Shown one piece after another: positions 31,076-38,503 of a stretch of DNA of 64,000 bases (position 1 is the first letter of the stretch; each line of letters opens with the position of its first letter). Made by a program: the position numbers and the translations under genes. The notes below the pieces were generated by a model. The model did not search any database. It was given only the letters and a program-made list of their open reading frames with translations, and was not told the origin of the DNA. Origin of the DNA: Microbacterium sp. LWH13-1.2 (GTDB taxonomy: Bacteria > Actinomycetota > Actinomycetes > Actinomycetales > Microbacteriaceae); the NCBI RefSeq assembly GCF_038397735.1, contig NZ_CP151635.1:1488001-1552000 (forward strand), in the 5' to 3' direction.

Positions 31076-33178
31076 TCAGGCGTCGATCGACTCCCGCGAC
31101 AGACGGTCGGAGGAGTCGATGATGAACTCGCGGCGTGGAGCGACCTCGTTGCCCATCAGCAGCTCGAAGACGCGACCCGCCGCCTCGGCGTCCTCCATGC
31201 GCACCCGGCGCAGAAGCCGTCCGCCTCGATCCATCGTGGTGTTCGCGAGCTGCTCGGCGTCCATCTCGCCCAGACCCTTGTAGCGCTGGATCGGCTCGTG
31301 CCAGCGCTTGCCGGCCTTGCGGAGCTTGGCCAGGAGCGTGTGCATCTCCTGCTCGCTGTAGGTGTAGATCGTCTCGTTCGGCTTGGAGCCGGGGTTCATC
31401 ACGATCACCCTGTGCAGCGGCGGCACCGCGGCGAACACGCGTCCGTGCTCGATGAGCGGACGCATGTACCGGTAGAAGAGCGTGAGGAGCAACGTGCGGA
31501 TGTGCGCGCCGTCGACATCGGCGTCGCTCATCAGGATCACCTTGCCGTAGCGCGCGGCGTCGATGTCGAAGCTCCGACCGGACCCCGCACCGATGACCTG
31601 GATGATCGAGGCGCACTCCGTGTTCGACAGCATGTCGCCGACGGACGCCTTCTGCACGTTCAGGATCTTGCCGCGAATGGGCAGCAGCGCCTGGAACTCG
31701 CTGTTGCGCGCGTTCTTGGCCGTACCGAGAGCGGAGTCGCCCTCGACGATGAACAGCTCGCTGCGCTCGACCTCGTTGGTGCGGCAGTCGACCAGCTTGG
31801 TCGGCAGGGTCGACGACTCCAGGGCGTTCTTGCGACGCTGGGTCTCCTTGTGCGCGCGAGCCGAGACGCGGGCCTTCATCTCGGCGACGATCTTGTCGAG
31901 CAGCTGCGTCGCCTGGCTCTTGTCGTCACGCTTCGTCGAGCTGAACCGCGCCGCGAGATCCTTGCGGATCACCTGGGCCACGATCTGGCGCACGGCCGGT
32001 GTGCCGAGGATCTCCTTCGTCTGCCCCTCGAACTGAGGCTCCGGCACGTTCACCGTGAGCACCGCGGTGAGCCCCGCGAGGACATCGTCCTTCTCGAGCT
32101 TGTCGTTGCTGCCGACCTTCAGACGGCGTGCGTTCTGATCGACCTGCGACCGCAGCACCTTGAGCAGCTCCTGCTCGAACCCCTGCTGGTGCGTGCCGCC
32201 CTTGGGTGTGGCGATGATGTTGACGAACGACCGCGTGGTCGTGTCGTAGCCCGTTCCCCAGCGCATCGCGATATCGACGGCGCAGACGCGCTCGACCTCT
32301 GTCGCGATCATGTGACCGTCGGCCTGCAGAACCGGAACGGTCTCCTTGAAGGTGCCTTCACCCTGGATGCGCCATGTGTCGGTGACGGGAGCGTCGTTCG
32401 CGAGGTACTCGACGAACTCCGAGATGCCGCCGTCGTACCGGTAGGAGGTCTCAATCGCCTGGCCCTCGACCTCGGCTCCGTTCGCCGCGCGCTCATCGCG
32501 GATGACGAGCTCGAGGCCGGGGACGAGGAATGCCGTCTGACGCGCGCGGGTCACCAGCTCGTTGAGCTGGAACGCGGCATCCTTCGTGAAGATCTGGTGA
32601 TCCGCCCAGTAGCGGATGCGCGTTCCGCTGGTGCCGCGCGGCGCCTTGCCGACGACCCGCAGCTCGCTCTTGTCCTGGAACGGCGTGAACTTCGCGTCCG
32701 GTCGCTTCTCGCCGGAGTCGGCGAAGAGCCCAGGCTCGCCGCGATGGAAGGACATCGCATACGTCTTGCCGCCGCGGTCGACCTCGACGTCGAGGCGCTC
32801 GGACAGCGCGTTGACCACAGAAGCACCGACTCCGTGCAGACCACCGGATGCGGCGTACGACCCACCGCCGAACTTGCCGCCGGCATGCAGCTTCGTGAAC
32901 ACGACCTCGACGCCGGTGAGACCGGTGCGGGGCTCGACGTCGACGGGGATTCCGCGGCCGCGGTCATGGACCTCGACGCTGCCGTCATCGTGCAGGATGA
33001 TGTCGATCTTCGAGCCGTTGCCCGCGACGGCCTCGTCGACGGCGTTGTCGATGATCTCCCAGAGGCAGTGCATAAGGCCCGGGGATCCGTTCGAACCGAT
33101 GTACATACCGGGACGCTTGCGGACGGCCTCGAGCCCTTCGAGCACCTGGAGATGATGGGCGGAATACTCGGCGGTCAC
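31076..33178 (-). CDS. parE: DNA topoisomerase IV subunit B
   Basis: A 700-residue GHKL ATPase subunit of topoisomerase IV. The start is the GTG of VTAEYSAHHLQVLEGL with GGAG upstream; the open frame continues 32 codons further without support. KRPGMYIGSN, the Bergerat Asn/Glu region EIIDNAVDEA, DRGRGIPV and the GLHGVGASVVNALS lid mark the ATPase domain (about 1-220). The TOPRIM domain has VEGDSALGTAKNAR and DADVDGAHIRTLLL. The C terminus QRYKGLGEMDAEQL is intact. TAGACT lies 8 nt before the GTG and may be the -10 of a near-leaderless transcript. It works with ParC, encoded 5.3 kb away on the other strand. Confidence 0.95.
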   Translation of the reverse strand: MTAEYSAHHLQVLEGLEAVRKRPGMYIGSNGSPGLMHCLWEIIDNAVDEAVAGNGSKIDIILHDDGSVEVHDRGRGIPVDVEPRTGLTGVEVVFTKLHAGGKFGGGSYAASGGLHGVGASVVNALSERLDVEVDRGGKTYAMSFHRGEPGLFADSGEKRPDAKFTPFQDKSELRVVGKAPRGTSGTRIRYWADHQIFTKDAAFQLNELVTRARQTAFLVPGLELVIRDERAANGAEVEGQAIETSYRYDGGISEFVEYLANDAPVTDTWRIQGEGTFKETVPVLQADGHMIATEVERVCAVDIAMRWGTGYDTTTRSFVNIIATPKGGTHQQGFEQELLKVLRSQVDQNARRLKVGSNDKLEKDDVLAGLTAVLTVNVPEPQFEGQTKEILGTPAVRQIVAQVIRKDLAARFSSTKRDDKSQATQLLDKIVAEMKARVSARAHKETQRRKNALESSTLPTKLVDCRTNEVERSELFIVEGDSALGTAKNARNSEFQALLPIRGKILNVQKASVGDMLSNTECASIIQVIGAGSGRSFDIDAARYGKVILMSDADVDGAHIRTLLLTLFYRYMRPLIEHGRVFAAVPPLHRVIVMNPGSKPNETIYTYSEQEMHTLLAKLRKAGKRWHEPIQRYKGLGEMDAEQLANTTMDRGGRLLRRVRMEDAEAAGRVFELLMGNEVAPRREFIIDSSDRLSRESIDA

Positions 33179-33362
33179 AATCTCCGAGTCTATTCGCGAT
33201 GCCTCCCCCCGGCCCGCAGACACTCCCCGTGGGCGACCACTGCGAGCGCTGCGCGTACGCGCTGAGCGAAACACGCCGCAAACCGGGCATTACTGCAGCC
33301 ACAGCGTGGTTACATTGAGCACGCCCAACCAGCGAACCCGACACTCTCAAGGAGGCACCGAG

Positions 33363-33575
33363 ATGAACGCAACGACTGAACGTGAGACCTCCGCCGTCGA
33401 GTTCCGCCTGACCGCCATGGATCGCTGTGATTCGTGTGGCGCTCAGGCCTACATCGCGGCCGAGGTCAACGGCTCCGAGCTGCTCTTCTGCGCCCACCAC
33501 GGACGCAAGTACGAAGAGAAGCTGCGCAGCGTCGCCACGAGCTGGCACGATGAGACCGCTCGTCTGATCGACTGA
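33363..33575 (+). CDS. Small cysteine-pair protein (DUF7455-like)
   Basis: A 70-residue protein. The start is set by a strong AAGGAGG 7 nt before the ATG. The core is MDRCDSCGAQAYIAAEVNG followed by LLFCAHHGRKYEEKL: a CxxC plus CxHH arrangement that probably binds one zinc ion. It matches a small actinobacterial family now labelled DUF7455, usually encoded near sigA or parE; function unknown. It has its own strong terminator and about 180 bp of upstream sequence shared with parE, so it is monocistronic. The strong ribosome site suggests abundant expression. Confidence 0.83.
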   Translation: MNATTERETSAVEFRLTAMDRCDSCGAQAYIAAEVNGSELLFCAHHGRKYEEKLRSVATSWHDETARLID

Positions 33576-33645: not shown

Positions 33646-34686
33646 TCACTCGATGACGACGCGCCGCACGCGGGGTGTCAGTCGGGTGAGGATCTCCTCC
33701 CCGACCGTGTCGATGCTCTCGGCGAGCGTGGTCGCGCTGCATTCCCCGTGCTCCCCCGCCCCGAACACCCGAACGGCGTCGCCCACCTGCATGCCCGGCC
33801 ACGCGGCGACCACGGACGTCGTCATGTCGATGCGGACCAGTTCGCGCGGTCCGTCCGGTGTGCCGACAGTCGCTCCCACGAGCGTGGACGGGATCCCGTC
33901 GAAAGAGCCGATCGCGATCACCGCATCGTGATCGCGGACCTCGACGACCGGGGCCACGAGCTCGGCCACGGGCAGGATCCCCTCGAGGTGCGGGCCGTCG
34001 GCCGAGCGGACCCCGTAGCAGAACGCACCGATGCGGGAGACGGAACCGCGCAGCTCCGGGCGCCACCAGGAAGCAGCGGATGCGGTCAGGTGCAGCGCCT
34101 CGGGGGTGCCCCCGGATTCCTCGACCACGCGGACGGCCTCGAGGAATGCCGCCTGGGCCTCGTCGTCCTCGGCGTCGCTGGCCTCGGCGAGATGACTCCA
34201 GACTCCGACGAGCTCGAGCTGCCCCGCGGCCTCACCTGCTCTGACGTCCGCGATCGTCTGCGCCCACTCCTGCGGAAGCAGTCCGTTGCGATGCAGCCCC
34301 GTGTCGATCTTGAGATGGATCCGGGCGCGAAGTCCGAGATCATGTGCCCGCGCGATGATCCGCTCGAGATACTCGGCGCTGCCGACACCGAGGTCGATGC
34401 CCTGCCGCAGCGCCTCGTCGATCTCGGGATCGGTCGATGTGACCCAGGCGAGCACGCGCCCGCTCTCGCCCAGTACGCGCCGTGCCTCGACACCGCTGTC
34501 GACGTCATAAGAGCCGAACCATTCGACGCCGGCGCTCTGGGCTGCCTCCACCGCCCAGCGGAGCCCGTGTCCGTACGCGTCGTCTTTGAGGACCACCATC
34601 AGCGCCGACGGAGCGATGCGCTCGCGCACGGCGGCGATGTTCGACACGAACCGATCGGTGCGGATGCGGAGTTCCGGGCGGCTCAT
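33646..34686 (-). CDS. alr: Alanine racemase-family protein, long subunit (catalytic-Tyr domain degenerate)
   Basis: A 346-residue fold-type III PLP protein. The barrel is complete: PLP lysine Lys34 in VLKDDAYGHG, KIDTGLHRNG near 126-135, GVWSHLAEASD near 161, and Arg218 in SRIGAFCYG, equivalent to Arg219 of Geobacillus Alr, which contacts the pyridine nitrogen. The C-terminal beta domain is altered: the segment with the catalytic Tyr265 is deleted, the Tyr284 position is Ser261 (AIGSFDGIP), and the Met312-Asp313 pair reads Met-Thr. Alone it should lack the second acid/base. It overlaps the short racemase-like gene by 4 nt (ATGA), implying coupled, near-equimolar synthesis. It could be inactive, act on another amino acid, or pair with the short partner. 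Confidence 0.85.
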   Translation of the reverse strand: MSRPELRIRTDRFVSNIAAVRERIAPSALMVVLKDDAYGHGLRWAVEAAQSAGVEWFGSYDVDSGVEARRVLGESGRVLAWVTSTDPEIDEALRQGIDLGVGSAEYLERIIARAHDLGLRARIHLKIDTGLHRNGLLPQEWAQTIADVRAGEAAGQLELVGVWSHLAEASDAEDDEAQAAFLEAVRVVEESGGTPEALHLTASAASWWRPELRGSVSRIGAFCYGVRSADGPHLEGILPVAELVAPVVEVRDHDAVIAIGSFDGIPSTLVGATVGTPDGPRELVRIDMTTSVVAAWPGMQVGDAVRVFGAGEHGECSATTLAESIDTVGEEILTRLTPRVRRVVIE

Positions 34687-35390
34687 GCCTCCCACCCCCG
34701 CTCCGCGTGCGACCCGGCCACGGCGATGAGCTCGGCGATGGTGAGTCCGGTCACAGCGCTCCAGCGCGCGAGCCCCGGGCCGGCAGGTCCCGTCCCGCCG
34801 AAGTAGGTGGCGTCGACACCCGGCTGGGGATCGGTCGCATCCTGCAGATCGACCACACAGACATCCATCGCGACGCGCCCGACGATCGGCCGTTGCACAC
34901 CGTCGATCTCGACGTGGGCCGCATTGCCAAGTGCCCGAACGATCCCCTGCGCGTATCCGCCGGTGATGAGTGCCGCTGTGGTGTCGCGAGTTGCCCGATG
35001 CGTGTAGCCGTACGAGACCGCGTCTCCGGCCTTCAGCGGCTTCGTCGACAGAATCCGTCCGACGAGGCGCATCACGGGGATCGTCTGCAGCGTCCCCTCG
35101 GCATCCGGCAGTCCGTAGAGCAGGAAAGGGTCGATGTCGGCCACGCCCTCGGTGACAGCCTCGATGCCCTCGAGTCGCAGCATCTCGGCCTCTTCCGCGT
35201 AGTCCACGAGCACGGCCGCGGCGCCGGCACCCGTCACGGCGTGCGCGATCGCGAGCACTCCATGGCCCCAGGCATCCTTGCGGAGATCCGCGATCCGGCC
35301 TCCCGCGTCGACGGCTGCGGACGCGGACGCGGCCAGAGCCGACCGCGAGATCATCGCCCGCGGACGGGAGCTGGAAGTCTTCTCACACAC
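34683..35390 (-). CDS. Truncated alanine racemase-like protein, short subunit (carries the catalytic-Tyr domain)
   Basis: A 235-residue protein, far shorter than the usual 360-380. It keeps the lysine loop (Lys38 in LRKDAWGHG) and the next helix and strand to about residue 82, then jumps to the end of the barrel (DPFLLYGLP, about 87-95), omitting the strands that bind PLP phosphate and the Arg219 position. The C-terminal domain is complete: Tyr127 in AVSYGYTH, Tyr146 in TGGYAQG exactly 19 residues later, as Tyr265 and Tyr284 are spaced in Geobacillus Alr, and Met175-Asp176 in GRVAMDVCVVDL. A TAGGCT -10 six bases before the GTG indicates a genuine, expressed 5' end, so this is not a decaying fragment. 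It is translated first, coupled to the long partner. Confidence 0.83.
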   Translation of the reverse strand: MCEKTSSSRPRAMISRSALAASASAAVDAGGRIADLRKDAWGHGVLAIAHAVTGAGAAAVLVDYAEEAEMLRLEGIEAVTEGVADIDPFLLYGLPDAEGTLQTIPVMRLVGRILSTKPLKAGDAVSYGYTHRATRDTTAALITGGYAQGIVRALGNAAHVEIDGVQRPIVGRVAMDVCVVDLQDATDPQPGVDATYFGGTGPAGPGLARWSAVTGLTIAELIAVAGSHAERGWEA

Positions 35391-35396
35391 GGTTCC

Positions 35397-35402
35397 AGCC
35401 TA
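35397..35402 (-). promoter_or_regulatory. Candidate leaderless -10 (TAGGCT) of the racemase operon
   Basis: TAGGCT on the minus strand ends 6 nt before the GTG of the short racemase-like gene. It supports that start. Confidence 0.55.
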
Positions 35403-35437
35403 GCTCCGCCTTCTCAGGATGCCCTGCGTGCCCCCCG

Positions 35438-35443
35438 TAGACT
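35438..35443 (+). promoter_or_regulatory. Candidate -10 (TAGACT) of the ATP-grasp gene
   Basis: TAGACT lies 26 nt before the ATG, leaving room for a short leader that contains TTGGAG. Confidence 0.35.
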
Positions 35444-35469
35444 GGATGGGACCCCGACCTTGGAGATCC

Positions 35470-36486
35470 ATGTCACGCTTTTCCCTCGTGCCCCGCGTCC
35501 GCTATCTGCTGACGCGCGCCCGCCGCATCGACGTCGCCTCGGTGATCGAGAGGGCCAAGGAGTCATCCGCCCAGCACGGCAAGGCCGTGCCCCTCGTGGT
35601 GGTCGACATGCTGTGGTCGGCGGGTCGACACAACGTCGGATTCCAGGACTACATCGACTACGACTTCGCGATCCTCACCAAGGCCGAGCGCGACACCTTC
35701 ATGACGCACCCGGTCTCCAACGAAATCTCGCAGAAGTACGACCACCCCGATTACCGGCACCTCTTCCACGACAAGGCCGAGTTCAACGCCGTCTTCGACG
35801 CGTTCCTCAAACGCGAGTGGATGCTCATCACCGAGGGCAATGCCGAGGAGCTGCGCGCCTTCACGGAGCGCCAGGGCACGATCGTCGTCAAGGAGACGCA
35901 CGGTCAGGCCGGCACCGGCGTGCACCGCTACCACGCGGCCGACGTGACCGACTGGGACGCCTTCCATGCGGAACTGCTGTCGAAGAAGCAGGTGCTGGTC
36001 GAAGAGGTCATCCGTCAGCACGCCGACCTCGCCGCCGTCTGCCCCGGCACGGTGAACACCACCCGCATCACCGCGTTCTTCGACGGCGAGAAGACGCACA
36101 TCCTCGCGATGGCGCAGAAGTTCGGCCGCGGAGCCGTCAGCGACCAGATGAGCTTCGGCGGTTTCTACACCATGCTCGACGAGGACGGACATTCGGTGGG
36201 CTCGGGCTACGACTCGCACGGGCACGTCCACGTCACGCACCCCGACTCGGGCTTCCCGATCGCCGATTTCCAGCTGCCGATGATGGATGAGGTGCGCGAG
36301 TTCGTCGACCGGGTCGCCCGCGTCGTGCCTCAGGTCCAGTACGTCGGCTGGGACGTCGTGGTCACCGCCGAGGGACCTGTCCTGGTCGAGGGCAACTGGG
36401 GAGCCGGCGTGTACGAGAACAAGCCGAGCGTCACGGGCATCCGCACGGGCCACAAGCCTCGCTACCAGGCCGCCATCGGGTTCTGA
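35470..36486 (+). CDS. Sugar-transfer-associated ATP-grasp family protein
   Basis: A 338-residue protein with an ATP-grasp core. GTIVVKETHGQAGTGVHRY (about 140-160) is the phosphate-binding loop, QVLVEEVIRQH the hinge Glu region, NTTRITAFFDG a central strand, and VGWDVVVTAEGPVLVEGNW the metal-binding Asp-Glu-Asn end. This matches the ATPgrasp_ST family (alpha-L-glutamate ligase-related), often found in cell-envelope polysaccharide loci. The ATP-grasp fold joins a carboxylate to an amine or thiol; the substrates are not known. The ATG follows TTGGAG. It diverges from the racemase pair over 79 bp and ends in a strong terminator, so it is monocistronic. A shared cell-wall role with the racemases is plausible only from position. 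Confidence 0.82.
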   Translation: MSRFSLVPRVRYLLTRARRIDVASVIERAKESSAQHGKAVPLVVVDMLWSAGRHNVGFQDYIDYDFAILTKAERDTFMTHPVSNEISQKYDHPDYRHLFHDKAEFNAVFDAFLKREWMLITEGNAEELRAFTERQGTIVVKETHGQAGTGVHRYHAADVTDWDAFHAELLSKKQVLVEEVIRQHADLAAVCPGTVNTTRITAFFDGEKTHILAMAQKFGRGAVSDQMSFGGFYTMLDEDGHSVGSGYDSHGHVHVTHPDSGFPIADFQLPMMDEVREFVDRVARVVPQVQYVGWDVVVTAEGPVLVEGNWGAGVYENKPSVTGIRTGHKPRYQAAIGF

Positions 36487-36575: not shown

Positions 36576-37267
36576 TCAGGCCTCGCGCACGATTCCCATC
36601 GGCGTCGACTGCGTCGCCTGGCCGAGGGGGTTGTCACCGAGGATCTGAACGAGCCGGCGCTCACCGGCCTTGTCGAGAGTCGATCCCAGGATGTTGCCGC
36701 CGATGTCGTTGATGTCGACGACCGCCACATCAACCTGTCCGCCGACCAGCTTCTGGATGCGGAGAGCGACCTCGCGCGGGTTCTTCGGTCCGAGCACGAC
36801 CGCCTGGTTGTAGGGCGGGATCGTGTTCTTCGTGGGGCCGTCGATCGCGCGGGCCTTGTCGCCCGCGATGCGATAGAAGTCACCGCGACGGCCGAAGGCC
36901 TTCGTGATCACCGAGACGCCCGCTGCGAAGAGGATGCGCAGGGTGCCGCACTCGCGCAGCGCCATCTCCATCGTCTCCGGCATGCCGAGGCCGATGCCGT
37001 AGGAGGTGCGTACGACATACCGCGAGAGGAAGCGCGCGAGCGGACGTGGAGTGATCTCGTCGAGACGGTACGAGCGTCCCTGCGTGATCGCCACGATCTT
37101 CTCGGTCACGAACAGCAGGTCTCCCGGCTGCACGGCATCCTTCGCGTACTCCGTGATGACGGAGTCGAGGTCGTCGTCAGGCATGACGACCCGGGTTCGC
37201 AGCGGAATACGTGCGTAGCTCTTGCCGTCGACGCTCGTCTCGAGCGCCTTGCCCTCGTTCGCCTGCA

Positions 37268-37268
<1 letters not shown>
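36576..37268 (-). CDS. CofE-like protein (coenzyme F420-0:L-glutamate ligase family)
   Basis: A 230-residue single-domain CofE/FbiB-N family protein. Visible family features are GDLLFVTEKIVAITQGR near 50, the central FYRIAGDKARAIDGPT and IPPYNQAVVLGPKNP, and DINDIGGNILGST near 190. CofE adds glutamates to F420-0 using GTP. The usual D-x-x-GRPWR segment is not recognisable; the DINDIGG stretch takes that position, so the substrate may differ. There is no C-terminal nitroreductase domain as in FbiB and no other F420 gene in the window. Its ATG overlaps the sigA stop by one base (TGATG), so it is translated from the sigA message. Confidence 0.75.

Positions 37269-38503
<1,235 letters not shown>

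Follow-up and report, generated by a model that had tools for sequence, protein, structure and literature searches.

Two overlapping genes at the sigA-parE locus of Microbacterium probably encode a split, heterodimeric enzyme of the alanine racemase family

Textbooks present alanine racemase (Alr) as a homodimer, and antibiotics target it. In this fold-type III enzyme (structures 1SFT, 1XFC and 1VFS) a single gene provides both halves of an active site that is shared across the dimer, and each dimer holds two sites. The gene pair described here, SHORT and LONG, is like Alr in its two domains, its catalytic residues and a site that would be shared across the dimer, but judging from the sequence each gene provides only half a site and the pair would hold just one. 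Paralogous subunits of which one lacks catalytic residues are familiar from serine palmitoyltransferase and the prozyme-type heterodimers of trypanosomes; these have other folds or reactions, however, and do not place half a site on each gene with loss in both partners. The VanT serine racemase, in which the Tyr354 position is altered, resembles the pair as an Alr-family racemase with changed specificity, and its structure (4ECL) matched LONG, but VanT is full-length and unsplit. The lysine racemase Lyr and the broad-specificity racemase Bar are also Alr relatives without Tyr354 (Thr391 and Ala393), with larger cationic substrates (PMC3485190); both are complete-chain homodimers with a neutral residue at this position, whereas the residue in LONG is acidic and is paired with an acidic residue at position 169. 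Overlapping genes that form one heterodimeric enzyme are known from the LacLM beta-galactosidase (PMC4358714), which is an unrelated enzyme. No split or heterodimeric alanine racemase was found in the open-access literature.

The window analyzed here is a stretch of 64,000 nucleotides (positions 1,488,001-1,552,000) of a 3.77 Mb contig from Microbacterium sp. LWH13-1.2. A preliminary description had pointed to two overlapping alanine-racemase-family genes in it that look broken individually but complementary, and had proposed an obligate heterodimer. Its gene coordinates, the ATGA overlap and the residue assignments for both products were borne out by an open reading frame check, Pfam searches and alignment to 1XFC. 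The pair (Table 1) lies between a ParE-like gene and a gene called SigA, the product of which we take to be the principal sigma factor, recognized from its sequence; sigA and parE also flank the pair in most loci fetched with longer flanks. The hexamer described earlier as a -10 box was found where reported, and TAGGNT stands 6-7 nt 5' of the start codon in 30 of 33 relatives (those with a match starting at residue 1). On the evidence of this box, the SHORT transcript is likely to be leaderless. The gene for a small DUF7455 protein that adjoins parE is found at the same locus in several other genera.

Table 1. Features of the SHORT/LONG locus (positions in the window)
Feature	Position	Strand	Details
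SHORT subunit gene	34683..35390	-	235 aa; GTG at 35390, TGA at 34685-34683
LONG subunit gene	33646..34686	-	346 aa; ATG at 34686, stop at 33648-33646
ATGA overlap, SHORT stop and LONG start	34683..34686	-	NTGA in 71/75 relatives (clean loci)
TAGGCT, -10-like box	35397..35402	-	6 nt 5' of SHORT GTG
DNA gyrase B family gene (ParE-like)	31076..33274	-	flank; marks the sigA-parE locus
Gene called SigA	37268..38503	-	other border of the locus
DUF7455 small protein gene	33306..33575	+	adjoins parE
ATPgrasp_ST gene	35419..36486	+	divergent from the pair
F420_ligase-like gene	36576..37271	-	beside sigA

Pfam finds Ala_racemase_N (1.7e-42) and a partial Ala_racemase_C (4.2e-9, profile positions 35-126 of 127) in LONG, and Ala_racemase_C (1.3e-26, positions 1-123 of 127) in SHORT. 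LONG thus passes the family cut-off in both domains and SHORT in the C domain only, a short Ala_racemase_N piece (0.0035, positions 29-69 of 220) remaining below it. Both products scored under the 168-bit cut-off of the NCBIfam alanine racemase equivalog TIGR00492 (LONG 127.8 bits, SHORT 93.6 bits). The claim that SHORT lacks most of the PLP barrel holds, with the addition that it keeps the barrel start (first strands) in front of a complete Alr C-terminal domain and has Arg37 at the position of the PLP lysine; Lys38 follows, and a lysine at either place occurs in 0 of 75 relatives. Its Tyr127, Tyr146 and Met175-Asp176 align to Tyr271, Tyr290 and Met-Asp of the M. tuberculosis Alr 1XFC, corresponding to Tyr265, Tyr284 and Met312-Asp313 in Geobacillus numbering. 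The barrel of LONG is complete (Lys34, Tyr38, Lys126, Arg133, His165, Ser203, Arg218), and its C-terminal domain is missing the Tyr265 segment and has Ser at the Tyr284 and Thr at the Asp313 position. Met288 occupies the Met312 position of LONG, where just 2 of 75 relatives have Met. Glu168 and Glu330 of LONG correspond to Alr positions 169 and 354.

A scan of named genome contigs returned 242 relatives of LONG, and the best 80 were kept (by title 77 Microbacterium, one Microbacteriaceae bacterium, one Frigoribacterium and one Actinomycetota bacterium). In each of these best 80 of 242 loci, SHORT is the gene immediately upstream of LONG; in L043 it is cut by the contig edge. Setting aside L043, three loci with a broken frame (L074, L078 and L098) and, by hand, L090, in which SHORT has the same residues as elsewhere, left 75 clean loci, in which catalytic positions were mapped to Geobacillus numbering via the window genome's own full-length Alr. 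In every one of the 75, LONG has Lys39, Tyr43, Lys129, Arg136, His166, Ser204 and Arg219 and no residue at Tyr265, and SHORT has Tyr265, Tyr284, Ala311, Met312 and Asp313; a lysine at position 39 of SHORT was found in none. Lys39 and Tyr265 on one chain, the mark of a canonical homodimeric Alr, were therefore found together at 0 of 75 loci. Residues dispensable for one partner vary, position 312 of LONG being taken by 12 different residues across the 75 loci. As a control, full-length canonical Alrs keep Lys39, Arg136, Arg219, Tyr265, Tyr284, Met312 and Asp313 in 88 of 88 cases; an 89th row (P0153), labelled as partial and resembling a fragment of a fusion, was left out. The division of residues thus exceeds chance (75/75 divided vs 88/88 canonical Alrs whole). 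Comparison of the window with five relatives gave dN/dS values of 0.14-0.23 for LONG and 0.12-0.24 for SHORT, and both genes are under purifying selection.

Across 159 Microbacterium genomes, a match to SHORT was detected in 129 at a threshold of 1e-24 and in 30 there was none. A second search covered 21 genomes without a SHORT match, namely 20 of these 30 and G355 from the 398-genome family search described below. One of the 30, G477, turned out to have a diverged fusion of the two genes. The other 20 include 18 with a canonical Alr only and two, G411 and G438, with one more full-length-type match. Neither a lone LONG nor a lone SHORT was found in these 20 pair-less genomes: in the re-searched genomes the two genes are missing together.

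The ATPgrasp_ST and F420_ligase-like genes also stand near the pair at a few loci other than the window's. A functional link between the pair and the ATP-grasp gene was considered and is unsupported, because 20 of the 21 genomes chosen as pair-less have a relative of that gene (57-68% identity in 11 of them, only about 40% in 9), sometimes in two tandem copies. The single one of the 21 without such a relative is G477, which holds the fused pair, and in several genera the ATP-grasp gene was not seen beside the pair.

The same architecture was found beyond Microbacterium. The best 30 loci from a family search of 398 genomes span 11 genus codes, the window included, and 29 of them are tandem pairs in which LONG has Lys39 and lacks Tyr265 and SHORT has Tyr265 and Met312; the thirtieth is a fusion. 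Exceptions at secondary positions occur in other genera: Asp313 is replaced by Asn in the SHORT of L033 and Tyr284 by Phe in three SHORTs, some LONGs keep Tyr or Phe at 284 as well as Asp313, and the LONG frame of L038 is broken. At three loci from one genus (L021, L025 and L027) the upstream gene still encodes a full-length protein, in which Asp replaces the PLP lysine and positions 129 and 166 hold Val and Gly; we read these full-length, apparently dead partners as intermediates. Most SHORTs of other genera (L020-L039) carry Arg at the PLP-lysine position within a well conserved D-R-D-YGHG stretch, and for this reason the barrel remnant of SHORT does not seem to be simply decaying; in the fusion L206 it has apparently been lost. 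No short-type rows from outside Microbacteriaceae appeared among the matches listed in an order-wide search of 119 genomes, 110 of them from 16 other families.

Fusions were found in both gene orders. Short-Long fusions in one open frame occur in three genera: L125 (G234) and L122 (G283), both at the parE locus, and L206 (G477, from the window's genus). Long-Short fusions that keep Tyr354 lie in one open frame at another locus in 9 of 10 genomes from the G309 genus (G309 itself is, by protein identity, Pseudoclavibacter chungangensis), the fusion of the tenth (G398) being in pieces, and in 11 of 11 genomes of the G020 genus, which includes Gulosibacter species (the G399 match is without its first 96 residues). 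An alignment of 31 fusions shows K33, Y37, R141, R226 and Y367 invariant in the LONG half and Y523, Y542, M571 and D572 invariant in the SHORT half. AlphaFold2 modeled a Long-Short fusion of this Tyr354 type, which is other than that of the window's clade, with a pTM of 0.90 and a pLDDT of 87.6; the fold comparison of the fusion spans about residues 1-393, with the SHORT half outside. The Short-Long fusion of G234, from the window pair's clade, reached a pLDDT of 66.9 and a pTM of 0.67 with only 2 rows covering its LONG half. For this fusion, alignment A2 seemed, reproducibly, to put SHORT rows on the LONG half and was left out.

Two explanations other than a heterodimer can be weighed against these data. 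That the genes are decaying duplicates, two broken racemase genes heading for loss, we regard as having almost no probability. Essential residues are indeed lost from each gene alone, 30 of 159 genomes have no SHORT match, and one gene has a broken frame at 3 of the 80 loci and again at L038, but selection is purifying in both genes, the catalytic residues are invariant in all 75 loci, the pair has been kept across 11 genera, and fusions exist; decay into pseudogenes was rejected on dN/dS and residue invariance. It is also very unlikely, to a slightly lesser degree, that SHORT is a regulatory pseudo-subunit of the full-length Alr and LONG an independent enzyme. A complete Alr C-terminal domain in SHORT and a full-length Alr in the same cell would suit such a role, yet SHORT and LONG adjoin at all 80 of the best 80 loci, are missing together in the re-searched genomes and become fused to each other, and LONG has no catalytic tyrosine of its own.

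For 30 whole genomes picked for their pairs or fusions, matches to both Ala_racemase domains (C and N) were collected. At least one full-length homologue besides was present in 19, and in the other 11 (G309, G389, G140, G278, G377, G325, G020, G161, G211, G234 and G365, belonging to Pseudoclavibacter, Gulosibacter and a third genus) every Ala_racemase_C match falls within a pair or fusion. G309, G389 (rated 90% complete) and G211 are single-contig assemblies. All 11 also have weaker matches to Ala_racemase_N that lack the C domain; we take these to belong to other families. Formation of D-alanine by a D-amino-acid transaminase was considered as another route; in 0 of 12 genomes (the 11 and the window genome) did a match exceed the cut-off, the best reaching 64 of 277 bits, though weak matches occur in 10 of 12. 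If D-alanine is made by racemization in the 11 genomes, the split or fused form would have to do it. Two of them, G140 and G278 (L123 3849-5977), have two different split racemase pairs each, with no Ala_racemase_C match elsewhere.

A barrel tree was built from 51 rows after exclusion of four that could not be cut. In it, all the sigA-parE-type LONGs make up a single clade of 24 rows (99/99) and the Tyr354 fusions another (89/88), and the LONG of the Tyr354 tandem pair of G140 clusters with full-length Alrs from Agromyces (96/90). An AU test was run on 47 rows, four dead full-length rows being left out and the groups having been defined after a first tree was built. Because it rejected a single origin of all splits (p 0.018), the split probably arose at least twice independently; holding the sigA-parE LONGs and the Tyr354 fusions together was not rejected (p 0.081).

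Taken together, the strict adjacency, the invariant complementary residues, the fusions in both orders and the genomes whose only Ala_racemase_C is split or fused support the heterodimer that had been proposed. We infer that SHORT and LONG associate physically and form an active enzyme, and they very probably constitute a split, obligate heterodimeric member of the fold-type III alanine racemase family with a single composite site. The lysine base and the barrel that binds PLP would come from LONG. SHORT would contribute the C-terminal domain, the part of Alr that extends across the dimer, and with it the tyrosine base and the Met-Asp-Tyr residues around that base; the other site of the LONG/SHORT dimer, related to the first by symmetry, would be dead. 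The idea is stronger than first stated; in this family the same division probably evolved more than once, and the fusions indicate that the two halves belong together.

What such an enzyme acts on is a separate matter. The preliminary description spoke of an alanine racemase and missed the acidic residues at positions 169 and 354, which point to another substrate; it had named a full-length alr elsewhere, with the pair often lost, as grounds against the heterodimer. Two further full-length Alr homologues are indeed present in the window genome and 30 of 159 genomes lack a SHORT match, but this leaves the heterodimer untouched, since both genes are missing together in the re-searched genomes. 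It does argue against a house-keeping role in alanine racemization, a role that the pair probably does not have. The third homologue in the window genome, L006 (G000:C1:3669342-3670397), has His at both the Lys129 and the Tyr354 positions.

Positions 169 and 354 set the pair apart from Alr. Canonical Alrs have Asn169 in 86 of 87 scored rows (of 88) and in all 22 of a Microbacterium set that contains the Alr of the window genome, and they have Tyr (84/88) or Trp (4) at position 354. The Tyr354 gate is absent from LONG, with Glu at both 169 and 354 in all 75 loci of the sigA-parE clade. Among 21 rows from other genera, nine are Glu/Glu, 11 are Asp/Asp and one has a single Asp, a frameshift having removed the other site; the two acids are never mixed. 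This distribution follows the two main LONG clades on the tree and thus looks like one switch, not many events. The Tyr354 fusions have Gly169 in 29 of 29 rows (2 of 31 left out).

Fold-type III includes decarboxylases, and with Tyr354 replaced the heterodimer might catalyze another PLP reaction on a cationic substrate, decarboxylation for example. We consider this improbable, as both racemase bases (lysine and tyrosine) are kept, along with Arg136 and with Arg219, which marks racemases within the fold type. In Alr, the residue at position 354 and Tyr265 make up the inner gate, and position 354 has a bearing on alanine specificity (PMC3485190, PMC4517790). Lysine racemase has Thr there, and when Tyr was put in its place lysine activity was halved and specificity showed no significant change (PMC3485190); position 354 alone therefore does not set the substrate. 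LONG would place two carboxylates where the substrate enters, suggesting that the side chain is cationic, and from this acidic pair a cationic diamino acid can be proposed as the substrate.

A competing possibility is that the heterodimer, with the same architecture, serves as a second, back-up alanine racemase. Family membership speaks for this, several sources name SHORT 'alanine racemase', and in other genera the Tyr354-type fusions and pairs seem to be the only alanine racemase. In the window genome, however, a full-length Alr (can1) has the canonical residues (Thr at 204), Tyr354 is replaced by Glu or Asp in every scorable row of the window's clade, and T. tengcongensis Alr with Asp or Glu at that position is reported to have had lower L-Ala activity (PMC4517790). 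We therefore judge a back-up alanine racemase unlikely, and the word 'alanine' is probably a misnomer for the window's pair. A cationic diamino acid as the substrate of the window pair, most likely ornithine (or diaminobutyrate), has in our estimate an even chance.

No enzyme making the D-ornithine or D-diaminobutyrate of group B peptidoglycan was found in the open-access literature. The clade of M. lacticum, M. flavum and M. laevaniformans has L-lysine walls. Three pair-less genomes match these species by their Alr (100% identity for M. lacticum, 99.5% for M. flavum and 99.5% for M. laevaniformans). The liquefaciens clade, in contrast, is described as having D-ornithine (PMC10757982), and the pair is present in named loci of or near this clade, from M. 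oxydans, M. maritypicum, M. paraoxydans, M. algeriense, M. galbinum and M. sufflavum. The three pair-less species are placed in one clade (PMC10757982) and, being related, amount to about one independent observation, which is why we put the ornithine/diaminobutyrate reading no higher than evenly balanced.

In its widest form, the proposal is that the sigA-parE pair is a dedicated heterodimeric diamino-acid racemase through which Microbacteriaceae obtain the D-ornithine or D-diaminobutyrate of their B2-type peptidoglycan, that the Glu/Glu or Asp/Asp clamp at 169 and 354 sets its substrate, and that complementary splitting recurred, giving genera whose only alanine racemase would be a single-chain pseudo-heterodimer. 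This combined view is tentative, and we place it slightly short of an even chance. If true, the family would offer a natural record of the passage from a homodimer to an obligate heterodimer, with full-length dead intermediates and fusions surviving in relatives. The source of D-ornithine and D-diaminobutyrate in group B peptidoglycan would become testable, and the 'alanine racemase' names now carried by such genes would need correction.
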